Assembly (NCBI GenBank): GCA_009838845.1
Contig: VXRD01000126.1
Coordinates: 62,001-126,000, forward strand
Direction: 5' to 3'
DNA length: 64,000 nt
Origin: Gemmatimonadota bacterium
GTDB lineage: Bacteria; Latescibacterota; UBA2968
A program made the position numbers and the translations under genes. The notes below the pieces were generated by a model. That model was given only the letters and a program-made list of their open reading frames with translations. It did not search any database and was not told where the DNA came from. Positions 4,318 to 37,004 of the stretch are shown in pieces; the stretch's first letter is position 1; each line of letters begins with the position of its first letter.

Positions 4318-5496
4318 TTGAAGCCTTATGACGCCATTCGCACCCGCCTTGCGCGCTCTCCAGAAGCTGGCGCTGCAGCGGGTTTTTCCGTTATATTTTT
4401 GGTTTTTGCACTCGCCGCGCCAGATACATTTCTCTCCCATAGCGCGATTTCATCCATTCTCAACAGTCAGGCCGTTCCGGGCATCCTCGCTATTGGTATT
4501 ACGCTTTTGATGATTTCTGGAGAGTTTGACCTTTCAGTTGGTTCTATTCTGGGGGTGTCTTCTCTCGCATTTCTCTATGCAACCGTAAATGGTGTACCTG
4601 TTTTACTCGCGGCAGCCATTGGATTAATTGTCGGCTGTTTGCTCGGTCTGATCAATGGGTTGCTTCTCATATCCACGGGCATTCCATCGTTTATTATTAC
4701 GTTGGGGACGATGCTCGCGTATCGCGCCATTCCTCTTACGGCTATTTCTGGTGGGCGCATTATACGATATGCCGACTATTCGCGCGAGTCTCCAATTCTC
4801 GAAGTGCCCGGTCTGGTAGTTTTTATTTTGACGCTCACACTTTTTTTTATTGTTCTGTGGATAGCGCGGGATATCTGGCGGGCGAGAAATCAATCCGCAA
4901 AGTCCAGGATTCTGGTTGCTGTTGCGCTTCTTTTTGTCGCTTATCTCGCCATTGAGGCACTTATACCCCATCCTTTGATGCCGGTTAAAATTGATTTTTT
5001 TTACGCGCTCAACGGACGCATTGAACCGGGGAACTACCGCACTGGCATTCTGTGGTGGATAGGACTGACCGCGGCTTTTGCGATTATCTTGAGTCAATCT
5101 CGTTTTGGCAACGCTGTTTTTGCCACGGGGGGCAATGCCCAGGCGGCGCGTTTGCAGGGTATTCGTATCGATCGCGTGCGCGTGACCAATTTTGTCATTT
5201 CGGGATTTCTCGCCGCGCTTGCGGGTATTATTCAGGTTGCACGCCTCAAAAGCGTCGATCCATTGCGCGGTACGGGGCTGGAACTCGAGGTTATCGCCGC
5301 GGTTGTCATTGGTGGTACGCTGCTCACAGGGGGGTATGGCAGTCTGATCGGTTCGGCTATTGGCACTGCGCTGACGGGCATGTTGCGCACGGGGCTTGTT
5401 CTTATGCAGGTTCCCTCCAATGCCTTTCGGGGTGCTATTGGTGCTATTATGATTGCGGCTGTTGTGATTAATAATTTTGTGCGGAAAGAACGCTGA
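4318..5496 (+). CDS. Sugar ABC transporter permease (RbsC-like)
   Basis: This 392-residue inner-membrane protein has about ten hydrophobic segments and belongs to the BPD_transp_2 family. The early motif ITLLMISGEFDLSVGSILG is the hallmark of RbsC/XylH-type sugar permeases. A later GTGLELEVIAAVVIGGTLLTG segment matches the ATPase-contact region. Translation appears to start at TTG (4318), preceded by AGG in the tail of the binding-protein gene only 8 bp upstream. A hydrophilic linker with a long membrane segment near residues 165-215 makes it somewhat longer than typical RbsC (about 320). Confidence 0.87.
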   Translation: MKPYDAIRTRLARSPEAGAAAGFSVIFLVFALAAPDTFLSHSAISSILNSQAVPGILAIGITLLMISGEFDLSVGSILGVSSLAFLYATVNGVPVLLAAAIGLIVGCLLGLINGLLLISTGIPSFIITLGTMLAYRAIPLTAISGGRIIRYADYSRESPILEVPGLVVFILTLTLFFIVLWIARDIWRARNQSAKSRILVAVALLFVAYLAIEALIPHPLMPVKIDFFYALNGRIEPGNYRTGILWWIGLTAAFAIILSQSRFGNAVFATGGNAQAARLQGIRIDRVRVTNFVISGFLAALAGIIQVARLKSVDPLRGTGLELEVIAAVVIGGTLLTGGYGSLIGSAIGTALTGMLRTGLVLMQVPSNAFRGAIGAIMIAAVVINNFVRKER

Positions 5497-5504
5497 GGCT
5501 ACAT

Positions 5505-6254
5505 GTGGCTTTGCTCGAACTCAAAAATATCGGTCGTCGCTTTGGGCATATTGTCGCGCTGAAAGGCATTGATTTCACGCTTGAGGATGGCGAAGTTCTC
5601 GCGCTTTTAGGCGATAATGGAGCGGGTAAATCTACGCTGATTAAGGTGATTACGGGTGTTTATCCGCCGAGCGAAGGCGATATGTATTTTGGGGATGAAG
5701 TCATTCGATTCGACTCGCCGCAGGATGCCCGAGATCTGGGTATTGAGACCGTTTATCAGGACCTCGCGCTCGTGCCGAGTATGAGCATTGCGCGCAATTT
5801 TTATCTGGGGAGAGAACTCGTCAAGCGGGTCGGTCCGTTTGCGCTTTTCGACCAGGCAGCGATGGATGCAGGTGCGGCCGCAGCGCTGGGTGAGATAGGT
5901 ATTCACATTCGCAACGCGAGTGAATCCGTTGCCCGTCTTTCCGGTGGCGAGCGACAATCGATTGCCATAGCCCGCGCTCTTCACTTTGGGTCTCGCGTGC
6001 TCATTCTCGATGAGCCGACTTCTGCCCTTTCTGTTGGCGAAACGCGCAAGGTGCTCGGCTATATTGCGGCTGCTAAAGAAAAAGGTATAGGTGTTATTTT
6101 TATTACGCATAATATTACCCATGTGTTTGAGGTTGCTGACCGGGCAACTATTCTCAGCCACGGCGAAAAGGTCGGCGATTTTTCGATCTGTGATGTCACG
6201 CAGGACGATGTCGCGGCTATGGTGATGGGACAGGGTATTCCTGAACATCTTTAG
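5505..6254 (+). CDS. Sugar ABC transporter ATP-binding protein, single domain
   Basis: This 249-residue ATPase energises the importer. Walker A is GDNGAGKST (36-44), the signature is LSGGE (145-149), Walker B ends LILDE (to residue 170), and the H-loop is ITHN. RbsA-type ATPases are normally double-domain proteins of about 500 residues. The single-domain form here resembles FrcA-type transporters and must act as a homodimer. The start is GTG at 5505, 8 bp after the permease stop. Its TAG stop forms the first bases of the octamer repeat element. Confidence 0.9.
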   Translation: MALLELKNIGRRFGHIVALKGIDFTLEDGEVLALLGDNGAGKSTLIKVITGVYPPSEGDMYFGDEVIRFDSPQDARDLGIETVYQDLALVPSMSIARNFYLGRELVKRVGPFALFDQAAMDAGAAAALGEIGIHIRNASESVARLSGGERQSIAIARALHFGSRVLILDEPTSALSVGETRKVLGYIAAAKEKGIGVIFITHNITHVFEVADRATILSHGEKVGDFSICDVTQDDVAAMVMGQGIPEHL

Positions 6255-6358
6255 ACGAATAGACGAGAAAAGCGCGAATAGACGAATAGACGAATCCCAC
6301 CCAACCACCCCAAATCACTACGAGCTTCGATTCGTTGATTCGTTGATTCGTTGATTCG
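6252..6358 (+). repeat. Octamer-bounded intergenic element, copy 1
   Basis: The spacer between the sugar ATPase and the MATE gene holds four TAGACGAA-type octamers (6252-6267 and 6279-6294), a C-rich core containing CCCAACCACCC, then three TTCGTTGA octamers (6331-6354) plus TTCG. The two octamer types are near-complementary when folded back, so the element could form a long imperfect hairpin. A second copy in the opposite orientation lies at 39659-39730 and shares the same 11-base core. The first unit overlaps the stop codon of the upstream gene. Confidence 0.8.
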
Positions 6359-6368
6359 CATTTATTCC

Positions 6369-7751
6369 ATGTCCAAACCACTCGAAACGACAATAGAATC
6401 CACCGAGCGTAAAGTCGATTTTTCGCTTACCGGAAAGATTTTCGGAATGACCATCCCGGTTGCTCTGGGAGGCCAGATCGAGAGTGTTGTACTCATGGTT
6501 CAACTCATTTTTATCGGGACGCTCGGTCCTGCCGCCCTTTCGGCGGTGGGTATTGCTCAGGTGTTTACGCGCGTTCTTTTTACGGCGATGATGTCCATTT
6601 CGAGAGGCGCGCTCACGATGGTCGCACAGGCGATTGGCGCAGATTCTATGCGCGAAGCCAGCGCATCGGCGAAGCAGGCGTTTTCCCTGCTTTTTTTCTT
6701 TAGTATCGCTTTTGGTCTGGGCAGTTTGGCTCTTTCGCCTTTTTTGATTCCGATGATGACCTCTGATTCCGAGGTGGCGGCGCTGGGTACGCCGTATTTA
6801 CAGGTTTTCTTTTTGGGCGTTCCCTTTATGACGCTGAATCGCGCGATTGCGAGTTGCTTTCAAGGTGCTGGGGATACGCGCACGCCTTTTTATCTGAGTT
6901 TGATCAGTAGTAGCATTCAAATTGTCATGTGTTATCTCCTCATTTTTGGTCACTGGGGTTTGCCGGAGATGGGCGTTGTAGGGGCTGCTGTGGGCGGTCT
7001 TTTGGGGCGCAGTGCGGCAACTTTGATTGGGCTTGGGTGTCTTTATAGCGGGCGTTTTGCGCTCACGCTTTTGCCCGATACATCCTATCGGTTTAACTGG
7101 GGCGTTGCGCGCCGCATTCTCAAAATTGGCGTGCCTTCTGGTCTGCAAGGCATTTTGCGCAATGGCTCAGGTGTGGTTTATCTCAAACTCATTGCCATGT
7201 CCACATTATCCACAACCGCGGTTGCAGCGTATGCGATTGGGAGTCAATTGGAACATATTTTGCGGCGAACCGGGCTGTCTTTTGGCACGGTTTCGACGGC
7301 TATGGTGGGGCAGCATTTGGGGGCGAAAGATCCCGCAGGTGCAGAGCGCCACGGTTGGACTATTCTCTTTATTTCTGTTGTGACCAATATTGCCCTGTCG
7401 CTGCCCGCCGTGGTGTTTGCTGGCGTTTTTATGTCGGTATTTACGGATGCACAAGAGGTGATCAGTACCGGTGTCATCTATCTTTACGCGATGGTTATTG
7501 CCGAACCATTTTTGTGTGCCTCCAATACGAGTAGCGGCAGTCTCAGAGGTGCTGGCGATACGATGCCTCCGATGTATTATACTCTGATTGCCCAGTGGCT
7601 CGTTCGCCTGCCCGTCGCTTATGTTCTGGGGTTTACGCTTGGGTTTGATATTTATGGTATCTGGGCCGCGCTTATTGTTTACAGTATTGTACAGGGTGTA
7701 CTTACTGTTCGCAAGTTTGCCCAGGGCCATTGGAAAAAGCACCAAATTTAA
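6369..7751 (+). CDS. MATE family efflux transporter
   Basis: This is a protein of about 460 residues with twelve predicted membrane segments. The repeated motif pattern is typical of MATE exporters: FGMTIPVALGGQIES near the start, then RAIASCFQGAGDTRTPF in the N-half and NTSSGSLRGAGDTMPPM as the matching repeat in the C-half. MATE proteins export cationic drugs or metabolites using a Na+ or H+ gradient. I chose ATG 6369 because the upstream in-frame TTG at 6351 falls inside the octamer repeat. It follows the sugar importer on the same strand but is separated by the repeat element. The substrate is unknown. Confidence 0.9.
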   Translation: MSKPLETTIESTERKVDFSLTGKIFGMTIPVALGGQIESVVLMVQLIFIGTLGPAALSAVGIAQVFTRVLFTAMMSISRGALTMVAQAIGADSMREASASAKQAFSLLFFFSIAFGLGSLALSPFLIPMMTSDSEVAALGTPYLQVFFLGVPFMTLNRAIASCFQGAGDTRTPFYLSLISSSIQIVMCYLLIFGHWGLPEMGVVGAAVGGLLGRSAATLIGLGCLYSGRFALTLLPDTSYRFNWGVARRILKIGVPSGLQGILRNGSGVVYLKLIAMSTLSTTAVAAYAIGSQLEHILRRTGLSFGTVSTAMVGQHLGAKDPAGAERHGWTILFISVVTNIALSLPAVVFAGVFMSVFTDAQEVISTGVIYLYAMVIAEPFLCASNTSSGSLRGAGDTMPPMYYTLIAQWLVRLPVAYVLGFTLGFDIYGIWAALIVYSIVQGVLTVRKFAQGHWKKHQI

Positions 7752-7859
7752 TCGTTTATAGACAATTGGTTGGTTTGGCTCTATATTTTCGCGATAAAAT
7801 TTTCCAGATTACTTTTGATTCGCAGGGGATTTTCATTGTCACCATCAGGAGGATGATTG

Positions 7860-9119
7860 ATGCTCAAACTATGTTATCGACACGCCTTCGTATTGTGTGG
7901 CCTGATATTGGTGTCCTGGACGACACTGGTCGCTGAGACAACGGTTCTGGAAAATGCCCGGGCGAGTATCGCGTTAACGCGTTTTGTGCAAGCTGTTGTC
8001 GATTCTAATCCTCGTGTGCAGGCAGCACGCGCGGGTTTAGAAGCGAGTAGTGCGCTTAGGGATGCCGCGTCGCGCCCCCTCTACAATCCCGAATTGTCGT
8101 TGGATGCTGAGAATGCACAAGCCAGAATACGCACACTATCGATTAGTCAGACACTGGACTGGGGCGGCAAACGCAAGGCGCGTACCGCAGTGGCGGAGTT
8201 AGACCGCCTCGTTGCCGAGGCGGAGTACTTGGATGCCCGATGGGCGGTTGCGGTAGATTTGCTCAATGGTCTCGTGCAATACCAGATTGGCATTGAACGC
8301 AATCGCCTGGCCCAGACGCGCCAGCAGTTGATGGAGGAGTTTGCGGCGTTGGCGCAACGTCAGTTTGCGGCTGGTGAGTTAGACCAGGTGGCACTCGGTC
8401 AGGCCATCCTTTCCCTGACCGAGGTGCGTATTCAAAAAGCAATGGTGGCCGCCGATCTGGCCGAAGCGCGACAAGCGGTGTACAGCCTTGGGCCGCGAAT
8501 ACCCGAGGCGCAGTGGCCCTCTCTTCCCGAAAAACTACCAGAGATACCTGAGCAAAGTGCTGATTCGCAGGCCCTGGTGCAGGCATTACCCGGGGTTGCA
8601 GCCGCACGGCATCGGGTCAATATGGCTGATGCTGTGGTGGGATTGCAACGACGCGAACGTCGCCCAGACCCGACACTGAGTCTCACTGGTGGGTACGAAG
8701 ATGGTGAAAGGTTGATCGGTTTGGGTCTGTCTATTCCGCTTCCGATCCGGAACCGCTTTGCACATGAAGTTACCGCAGCCATGGCAGAGCGCGTCCAGGC
8801 GCAACAACTCGCCGATGACGCAGTGCAGATGGCACACGCTTCCCTGACCAGTGCGGCAGCGCGCTACGAGTTATCGCGCTCTGCCTGGGATGAGTGGGAA
8901 CATACAGGGCGGAAGAGCCTGGACCGACAAAGCGAGCAACTGCGCCGACTCTGGCAGGCTGGGGATCTCAGTACGGCCGATTATTTGAGTCAATTGGGAG
9001 AGACCCTGGATGTACAGGAAAGTGCCCTTGATCTGCGCGGGCAGGTCTGGCAGGCCTGGTTCCAGTGGCTTCTCGCAGCGGGTCAGGTGGATGTCTGGCT
9101 CGGTCTTACATGTGAATGA
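7860..9119 (+). CDS. TolC/CzcC family outer-membrane efflux protein
   Basis: This is a protein of about 419 residues with an N-terminal hydrophobic signal segment ending near LVAE. The remainder is mostly long amphipathic helices in two repeats, as in TolC-fold proteins. The segment PLYNPELSLDAEN and a later RPDPTLSLTGGYEDGE are the typical strand regions (about residues 75 and 265) at which the two repeats cross the outer membrane. An AGGAGG at 7847-7852 places the start at ATG 7860. It is the first gene of a three-gene cluster with a heavy-metal permease and a ZIP transporter, so a role as exit channel for metal efflux (CzcC-like) is likely. No periplasmic adaptor gene is present here. Confidence 0.85.
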   Translation: MLKLCYRHAFVLCGLILVSWTTLVAETTVLENARASIALTRFVQAVVDSNPRVQAARAGLEASSALRDAASRPLYNPELSLDAENAQARIRTLSISQTLDWGGKRKARTAVAELDRLVAEAEYLDARWAVAVDLLNGLVQYQIGIERNRLAQTRQQLMEEFAALAQRQFAAGELDQVALGQAILSLTEVRIQKAMVAADLAEARQAVYSLGPRIPEAQWPSLPEKLPEIPEQSADSQALVQALPGVAAARHRVNMADAVVGLQRRERRPDPTLSLTGGYEDGERLIGLGLSIPLPIRNRFAHEVTAAMAERVQAQQLADDAVQMAHASLTSAAARYELSRSAWDEWEHTGRKSLDRQSEQLRRLWQAGDLSTADYLSQLGETLDVQESALDLRGQVWQAWFQWLLAAGQVDVWLGLTCE

Positions 9120-29104: not shown

Positions 29105-29157
29105 TGAGAAGAGAGTTAGCGGGAAGAATCCCCGAAGAAAGGATGAAATGGCGTATT

Positions 29158-29234
29158 TGTAACAAAAATGTCACGTTTTTGTGACCAAAGCGTAACCGTT
29201 TTGGAGGCGATTTGTAACATTATAGCGATATCTT
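29158..29234 (+). promoter_or_regulatory. Pho-box-like array and -10 before the porin gene
   Basis: Seven-base half-sites recur every 11 bp: TGTAACA (29158), TGTCACG (29169), TGTGACC (29180), CGTAACC (29191) and TGTAACA (29213), with a poor unit at 29202. This 7+4 spacing is the PhoB box layout. A TATCTT hexamer (29229-29234) starts 9 bases after the last unit, as expected for PhoB-activated promoters lacking a -35. Transcription would begin near 29241. Confidence 0.75.
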
Positions 29235-29284
29235 ATCGCGGAGAACGTCGTTTATTCACCAATTCGAAGGGAGAGCAAAAGCGC

Positions 29285-30232: not shown

Positions 30233-30240
30233 GTACAGGT

Positions 30241-30278
30241 TATCACATAAATGTCGTGTTTTCGTCATCTGTGTAACG
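30241..30278 (+). promoter_or_regulatory. Pho-box-like array before pstS
   Basis: Half-sites TATCACA (30241), TGTCGTG (30252) and CGTCATC (30263) repeat at 11 bp, followed by TGTAACG (30272). The array begins 9 bp after the porin stop. I do not see an unambiguous -10. It would give pstS its own phosphate-controlled promoter. Confidence 0.6.
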
Positions 30279-30328
30279 CGATACAGGTTTATTTTTTTCA
30301 TTCTGTAACACTACCCAAGGGAGATTGA

Positions 30329-36117: not shown

Positions 36118-36134
36118 GCAGAGGAGTCATGATT

Positions 36135-36812
36135 ATGGAGCGTACTCTTGACCAGCATCTCGACCACCTCAAAGGTGAGTTGTTGAAGATGGGTAGTGCG
36201 GTAGAAGAGTCTATTGAACAGGCAGTACAATCGCTTGTAGAACGCGACAATCACCTCGTTGATGTGGTTGAAGAGGGTGGACATCACATTGACGATTGGG
36301 AAGTGGAGATAGAAGAAGAGTGTTTGAGGGTGTTGGCTGTGCAGCAACCCGTGGCTGGCGATTTGCGCCTGGTGGCGGGCATTATGAAGATCAATTACGA
36401 TCTCGAGCGCATCAATGATCAGGCGGTGAATATCGCTCAGCGCGCCCGTTTGCTCAATCGCATGCCGCAATTGAAACCGCTGATCGATATTCCGCGGATG
36501 GCCGAGTTGGCACGGGGTATGGTCAGGGATGCTCTGGATGCATTTGTCAATCGCGATGTGGAATTGGCCAATAAGGTGCGTCGAATTGACGATACTATGG
36601 ATGCCTTGCGCGATCAAATTTTCCGCGAGTTGTTGACGTACTTAAACACGGGTATTCCCTCGACTGTGGATCAGGCTATTTTACTCATTCTCGTGTCCAG
36701 ACATCTGGAGCGCATTGGCGATCATTCATCCAATATTGCCGAAAATGCCGTCTATCTCGTTCAAGGGCGCATCGTGAGACATCAACAGGAGGAATTGCGC
36801 GCAGGCGAGTAA
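36135..36812 (+). CDS. phoU: Phosphate transport regulator PhoU
   Basis: This is a protein of about 225 residues made of two three-helix bundles. E-x3-D metal-binding repeats are visible (INYDLERINDQAVNIAQR and LVSRHLERIGDHSSNIAENA). It represses the Pho response under phosphate sufficiency by acting on PstB and the sensor kinase. I chose ATG 36135 since GAGGAG lies 8 bp upstream; an ATG at 36129 is too close to it. No phoB or phoR is in the window. Confidence 0.93.
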   Translation: MERTLDQHLDHLKGELLKMGSAVEESIEQAVQSLVERDNHLVDVVEEGGHHIDDWEVEIEEECLRVLAVQQPVAGDLRLVAGIMKINYDLERINDQAVNIAQRARLLNRMPQLKPLIDIPRMAELARGMVRDALDAFVNRDVELANKVRRIDDTMDALRDQIFRELLTYLNTGIPSTVDQAILLILVSRHLERIGDHSSNIAENAVYLVQGRIVRHQQEELRAGE

Positions 36813-36839
36813 TCTCCACCGTATTTTTGTGGCGAACAC

Positions 36840-36883
36840 TGTCGCGTAAATGACACGCGATTGTAACACGGCGATGATATTAT
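36840..36883 (+). promoter_or_regulatory. Pho-box-like promoter downstream of phoU
   Basis: Half-sites TGTCGCG (36840), TGACACG (36851) and TGTAACA (36862) repeat every 11 bp. TATTAT (36878-36883) lies 9 bases after the last unit, the same geometry as at the porin promoter. A start near 36890 would run straight into two terminators. Confidence 0.65.
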
Positions 36884-36889
36884 ACCCAA

Positions 36890-36946
36890 AGCACGACGTA
36901 TTCTCCCTCTTGGGAACCGGCCCGCGACCCGGTTCCCATTTTTTTT
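36890..36946 (+). ncRNA. Candidate phosphate-regulated small RNA
   Basis: A transcript from the Pho-box promoter would begin near 36890 and end at the first terminator, giving about 57 bases, or about 84 if it reads through to the second. It contains no start codon with a ribosome site. Existence is inferred only from the promoter-terminator arrangement; the alternative is that the Pho box drives read-through to the Nudix gene. Confidence 0.3.
36912..36946 (+). terminator. Terminator 1 after phoU
   Basis: Arms GGGAACCGG (36912-36920) and CCGGTTCCC (36929-36937) with an 8-base loop, followed by ATTTTTTTT. It is a strong Rho-independent terminator. Confidence 0.85.
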
Positions 36947-36973
36947 GCCCCGAATTCAAATTCGGGGCTTTTT
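36947..36973 (+). terminator. Terminator 2 after phoU
   Basis: Arms GCCCCGAAT (36947-36955) and ATTCGGGGC (36960-36968) with a TCAA loop, followed by five T residues. It directly follows terminator 1. Confidence 0.85.
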
Positions 36974-36975
36974 CG

Positions 36976-37004
36976 TTGACCCAAAATTGGTACCTGTGTA
37001 TTTT
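36976..37004 (+). promoter_or_regulatory. Sigma70-like promoter for the Nudix/Cox-like operon
   Basis: TTGACC (36976-36981) and TATTTT (36999-37004) are separated by 17 bases, right after the second terminator and 42 bp before the Nudix start. Confidence 0.5.

Follow-up and report, generated by a model that had tools for sequence, protein, structure and literature searches.

The locus raises the question of what a Pho box is doing behind the last gene of a phosphate-transport operon, directly ahead of two tandem terminators. The window, that is, the whole 64,000-nucleotide stretch analysed, lies on contig C126 of genome G000, and every window feature described below is on its plus strand. The Latescibacterota genus concerned is represented here by metagenome-assembled genomes alone. 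The gene order at the locus is porin, pstS, pstC, pstA, pstB, phoU, a 233-bp spacer, and then genes for a Nudix protein, a MoxR-type AAA ATPase, a CoxE-type VWA protein and an XdhC-like protein. phoU (36129..36812; PF01895, E = 8.5e-48) is the last gene of the pst operon. A PhoB-PhoR pair is encoded elsewhere in G000 (C53), scoring ~260 bits against TIGR02154, below that model's cut-off of 296. The first-pass annotation saw in the spacer a candidate phosphate-regulated small RNA (sRNA) with a Pho-box promoter. Promoter anatomy, terminators and constraint on the 5′ block all support this proposal, and the best reading of the region is, with good confidence, a Pho-box-driven, terminator-bounded transcript of ~57 nt.

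The Pho box (36839..36867) comprises three 7-bp half-sites with a period of 11: CTGTCGC (36839-36845), ATGACAC (36850-36856) and TTGTAAC (36861-36867). These are the half-sites first noted, and they are present as described. The box takes the place of a −35 element and is followed, 10 bp past the last half-site, by the −10 element TATTAT (36878..36883); the 9 bases originally counted are the same distance in another register. An identical spacing occurs at pstS (Pho box and −10 region, 30240..30283, by sequence and matrix), where the −10 element is TTTATT. The resemblance to the array ahead of the porin (29157..29218; up to six half-sites of period 11, by pattern and matrix) likewise holds, with TATCTT lying 10 bp from the box if the last half-site is taken at 29212. 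From the −10 position, transcription is predicted to start at ~36889-36891.

The strongest single check of the Pho box is a leave-one-out matrix, for which the boxes of porin, TonB and pstS served as the training set and the candidate was held back. The candidate scores 20.1, and all scores of at least 17 on both strands of 720 kb from two congeners fall at the pst/porin/TonB/sRNA locus. A plain consensus pattern is weaker evidence than the matrix. Searched genome-wide with two mismatches, three copies of TGTNAC gave 5 matches versus 15 in the control, a borderline result when taken alone. Within the window, up to three mismatches gave 6 matches versus 0.8 expected, each located either in this array or at the porin. 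With a looser pattern across the genus, most further matches fell within the control rate or inside genes. Pho-like arrays precede a glycosyltransferase-like gene at L169 3663 (G009, G004) and a sigma-factor-like gene at L167 1487 (G005, G006); both are possible further members of the Pho regulon. A TGTAACTTATCCGAAACTTTGTTGTCAC-like array (L165 ~1426, minus strand) recurs in several genomes of the genus, and its variant in G007 lies next to a hairpin terminator, where no gene start adjoins it.

The predicted sRNA (36889..36946), delimited by promoter geometry and terminators, would be ~57 nt long, or ~84 nt (to 36973) if it extended through the second terminator. Both tandem terminators originally recognized after phoU are confirmed. 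Terminator 1 (36911..36946) consists of a 10-bp stem (36911-36938) and T8, and also closes pstSCAB-phoU. Terminator 2 (36947..36973) consists of a 9-bp stem (36947-36968) and T5. The RNA from 36886 to 36975 folds at −34.6 kcal/mol (z = −4.9); the fold leaves the 5′ end unpaired ahead of a hairpin. The stem of terminator 1 is paired in all nine distinct sequences, with changes between GC and GU only. In terminator 2, 100% of cells are paired and four pairs have changed on both sides, which indicates that the RNA hairpin itself is what is kept. As originally reported, the predicted transcript contains no initiation codon that has a ribosome site. One coding alternative, a 61-aa ORF, was rejected: its frame begins at 36850, which falls within the Pho box and ahead of the transcript, and the ATG there is not conserved, being ACG in all eight remaining clade genomes.

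Conservation across the genus was used to gauge constraint on these elements. The Pho box, the −10 element and the 21-nt block that follows are kept in nine of the ten congeners with a sequenced spacer, while the flanking spacer diverges; in the eleventh genome, G005, the contig ends inside phoU. The comparison among relatives that the first-pass annotation had recommended thus gives a conserved promoter and terminators within variable surroundings (nine genomes), the Pho array itself being conserved throughout the clade (9/9). Among these nine genomes, half-site 3 is invariant in 7/7 columns, the −10 segment (36878-36884) in 5/7, and the segment 36890-36910, predicted to be unpaired, in 19/21. 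The comparison columns are invariant in 0/23 cases for the upstream spacer and 9/42 for the Nudix leader, and fourfold sites in two genes are invariant at 53%. The block AAAGCACGACGTATTCTCCCT (36888..36908), invariant in nine genomes and predicted to be unpaired, is the candidate pairing region. At the fourfold-site rate, a 21-nt invariant run would arise with a probability of 0.53^21, or ~2e-6. Judged by these alignments, the promoter and the 5′ block of the putative RNA are under purifying selection beyond the needs of a terminator. The block is common to six named records, five labelled Latescibacterota/Latescibacteria and one Gemmatimonadota. A covariance model finds the element in 10 of 11 genus genomes (in G008 at a reduced score, through the terminators) and no copy in 53 genomes of the phylum outside the genus.

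A target was not named in the earlier description. The addition made here is a complementarity between the candidate sRNA and the ribosome-binding sites of uptake genes, which suggests where such an RNA might act. Its motif UCUCCC resembles an anti-Shine-Dalgarno sequence, and for that reason the starts of other genes were used as background instead of random DNA, namely 475 translation starts from the same 720 kb of two congeners. One helix involves the gene for a TonB-dependent receptor. This gene has a Pho box of its own and lies divergent to the porin, between ppk and porin, in five genomes of the genus (L170, L161, L150, L149 and L137). At its start, AGGAUACGUCG is complementary to CGACGUAUUCU of the sRNA over 11-12 bp (p = 0.01; 12 bp and p = 0.004 in G006). 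All five genomes share one and the same TonB site, AAAGGATACGTCG, despite a differing leader. The gene is missing from this locus in G000, G001, G003 and G004.

A second segment, UUCUCCCUCU, is complementary to the ribosome-binding sites of both porin and pstS. The candidate site at the porin, AAGGGAGAG (29267..29275), pairs over 8 bp here; the helix reaches 10 bp in G007, where UUCUCCCUCU faces GGAGGGAGAG (p = 0.004). In G000 and G006 the 8-bp pairing has p = 0.05, and in G004 the match is lost. The ORF-called porin start, ATG 29168, falls inside the porin Pho array; in relatives the gene starts at an ATG just after GGGAGAGCAC, a codon that reads AAG here (29279-29281). At pstS, the candidate site AAGGGAGA (30317..30324) pairs over 7 bp here and in most genomes (p = 0.08), and single-gene p-values range from 0.004 to 0.09. 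In G002 and G004, an sRNA variant, CUCCCUUAUG, meets the pstS site CAUAAGGGAG as a 10-nt exact complement (p = 0.006 in G002); of 232 genes examined in G002, pstS has the best contiguous match. The sRNA and pstS changes lie on one branch and hence represent at most one joint event.

Taken as a set in G007, the TonB receptor, porin, pstS and phoB outscore random four-gene sets with p = 3e-4, the set having been chosen post hoc. phoB itself was rejected as a target: its 8-bp match occurs in G000 only, is not conserved, and it contributes no match of its own to the set. Since the targets were found after looking, the p-values are optimistic. Only ungapped helices set the Pho genes apart; scored by gapped duplex energy, pstS is unremarkable. 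A whole-genome search for extended complements returned 89 matches versus 68 for the reversed control, with no clear excess. On this evidence, it is an even call whether the putative sRNA acts as a brake on uptake genes.

The complementarity might instead reflect nothing but a generic anti-Shine-Dalgarno character, with a real PhoB-driven sRNA acting on other mRNAs. UCUCCC does pair moderately with many ribosome-binding sites, and CGACGUAU is invariant even in genomes whose locus has no TonB gene. However, the Pho-box genes as a set outscore random gene sets, and the TonB site, itself conserved, pairs with the half of the sRNA that is not C-rich. Action on other mRNAs is a minority reading and somewhat doubtful.

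A further explanation, and an improbable one, dispenses with a functional RNA and reduces the region to a pst-phoU mRNA 3′ end accompanied by a productless PhoB site, either a decoy or a pervasive promoter giving a functionless short RNA. The terminators serve the pst operon anyway and persist in G008, the genome without the box, and E. coli commonly has PhoB sites that do not affect transcription, though these are intragenic (PMC10294691). Neither a terminator nor a decoy accounts, however, for a −10 geometry and a 21-nt block conserved well above fourfold sites.

G008 is also the only genome to show a loss of the half-sites, an outcome in close relatives that the first-pass annotation had counted against the sRNA; the half-sites are kept in the other nine. 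Both terminators and the Nudix promoter are present in G008, which branches outside these nine in the tree, but the Pho box and the GCACGACGUAU block are not. A PhoB homologue was not found in G008 either, though outgroup genomes have one. The Pho box of pstS nevertheless persists there with a good score, so the loss of PhoB is no clean control. The G008 pattern is suggestive, being supportive rather than decisive. In the same genome, a 3.2-kb insert separates pstB from phoU (L063 ~5300-8565, reverse complement) and holds two similar long ORFs bearing low-complexity repeats.

Directly behind the terminators stands a sigma70-like promoter for the Nudix-MoxR-CoxE operon, TTGACC-17-TATTTT (36976..37004), whose hexamers are invariant in 10/10 genomes while their spacer varies. 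The operon having this separate conserved promoter, read-through from the Pho box, originally offered as the alternative to an sRNA, is not needed and loses much of its force. The Nudix genes do lie downstream on the same strand, in a phoU-Nudix order found across the order, but with two strong conserved terminators in between and a separate promoter behind them in every one of the ten genomes, even the one lacking a Pho box, it is very improbable that the Pho box drives this operon through a leaky attenuator, and the box does not qualify, from its sequence setting, as the operon's promoter.

The preferred reading, a PhoB-driven sRNA that pairs with and brakes uptake genes, is favoured as a whole by a narrow measure. 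When phosphate is short, phosphorylated PhoB would occupy the three half-sites in lieu of a −35 element, and transcription would start at ~36890. Terminator 1 would stop the sRNA at ~57 nt, with terminator 2 as a backup. The unpaired, C-rich 5′ part would then pair with ribosome-binding sites, those of the porin and pstS and, in genomes that have it, of the TonB receptor, and this pairing would lower the translation of PhoB-induced uptake genes. The outcome would be an incoherent feed-forward loop capping phosphate-uptake proteins while PhoB is active. Transcription, its start site, binding and control by PhoB, and repression as the direction of the effect are all predictions from sequence. 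Hfq (PF17209) has zero matches across the 11 genomes. A more tentative extension is that the RNA is a multi-target, Hfq-free brake on the TonB receptor, porin and PstS in a phylum that is uncultured, possibly born when a Pho promoter was placed before the pre-existing phoU terminator.

If correct, this model would give the PhoB regulon a brake that acts after transcription, and it would place an sRNA-based circuit in a genus of Latescibacterota where no Hfq has been found. It would also make the birth of an sRNA traceable, the terminators being common to the sister lineage and the promoter and pairing region being confined to the nine-genome clade, or else lost in G008. Short and specific, the predicted helices lend themselves to reporter testing in a laboratory host.

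No description of an sRNA that follows phoU and has a Pho box of its own was found in the literature searched, which lay mostly outside subscription journals. Among Rfam families, the candidate shows a weak likeness of layout to anti-hemB (RF02837) and suhB/mmgR (RF00519), at 20 bits each and far under the gathering scores (20.4 versus 49.5 and 20.2 versus 41, respectively), and belongs to neither. Enterobacteria are reported to have PhoB-linked sRNAs. One of these, EsrL of E. coli, is likewise an sRNA placed in the Pho response, compared here in sequence through Rfam only. By published accounts, EsrL is repressed by PhoB at low phosphate and acts on virulence and fimbriae genes; its case is disputed, a ChIP-seq study in K-12 having not detected PhoB at esrL. 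Dv_sRNA2 of Desulfovibrio offers a parallel as a response-regulator-controlled sRNA from a little-studied lineage whose binding site is conserved in relatives. It differs in that its regulator is DVU0679, not PhoB, that its function is unknown and that it adjoins the regulator gene (PMC3333781).

The closest parallels in arrangement are OppZ and CarZ, two autoregulatory sRNAs that Vibrio cholerae makes from the 3′ ends of operons (PMC7398697, PMC9438474). Like OppZ (52 nt) and CarZ, the candidate would be a short RNA at the end of an operon and would use the operon's terminator; it shares this type of 3′-end location by position alone, following phoU at the end of pstSCAB-phoU. As with OppZ and CarZ, its proposed partner is the mRNA of its own operon, here likewise a transport operon, with pstS as the candidate target. 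OppZ and CarZ are cut out by RNase E, whereas the Latescibacterota candidate has its own Pho-box promoter, although processing may also occur. OppZ needs Hfq, in contrast to a candidate whose genus yielded none in 11 genomes. Unlike OppZ and CarZ, the candidate could also reach separate genes, those of the porin and the TonB receptor.
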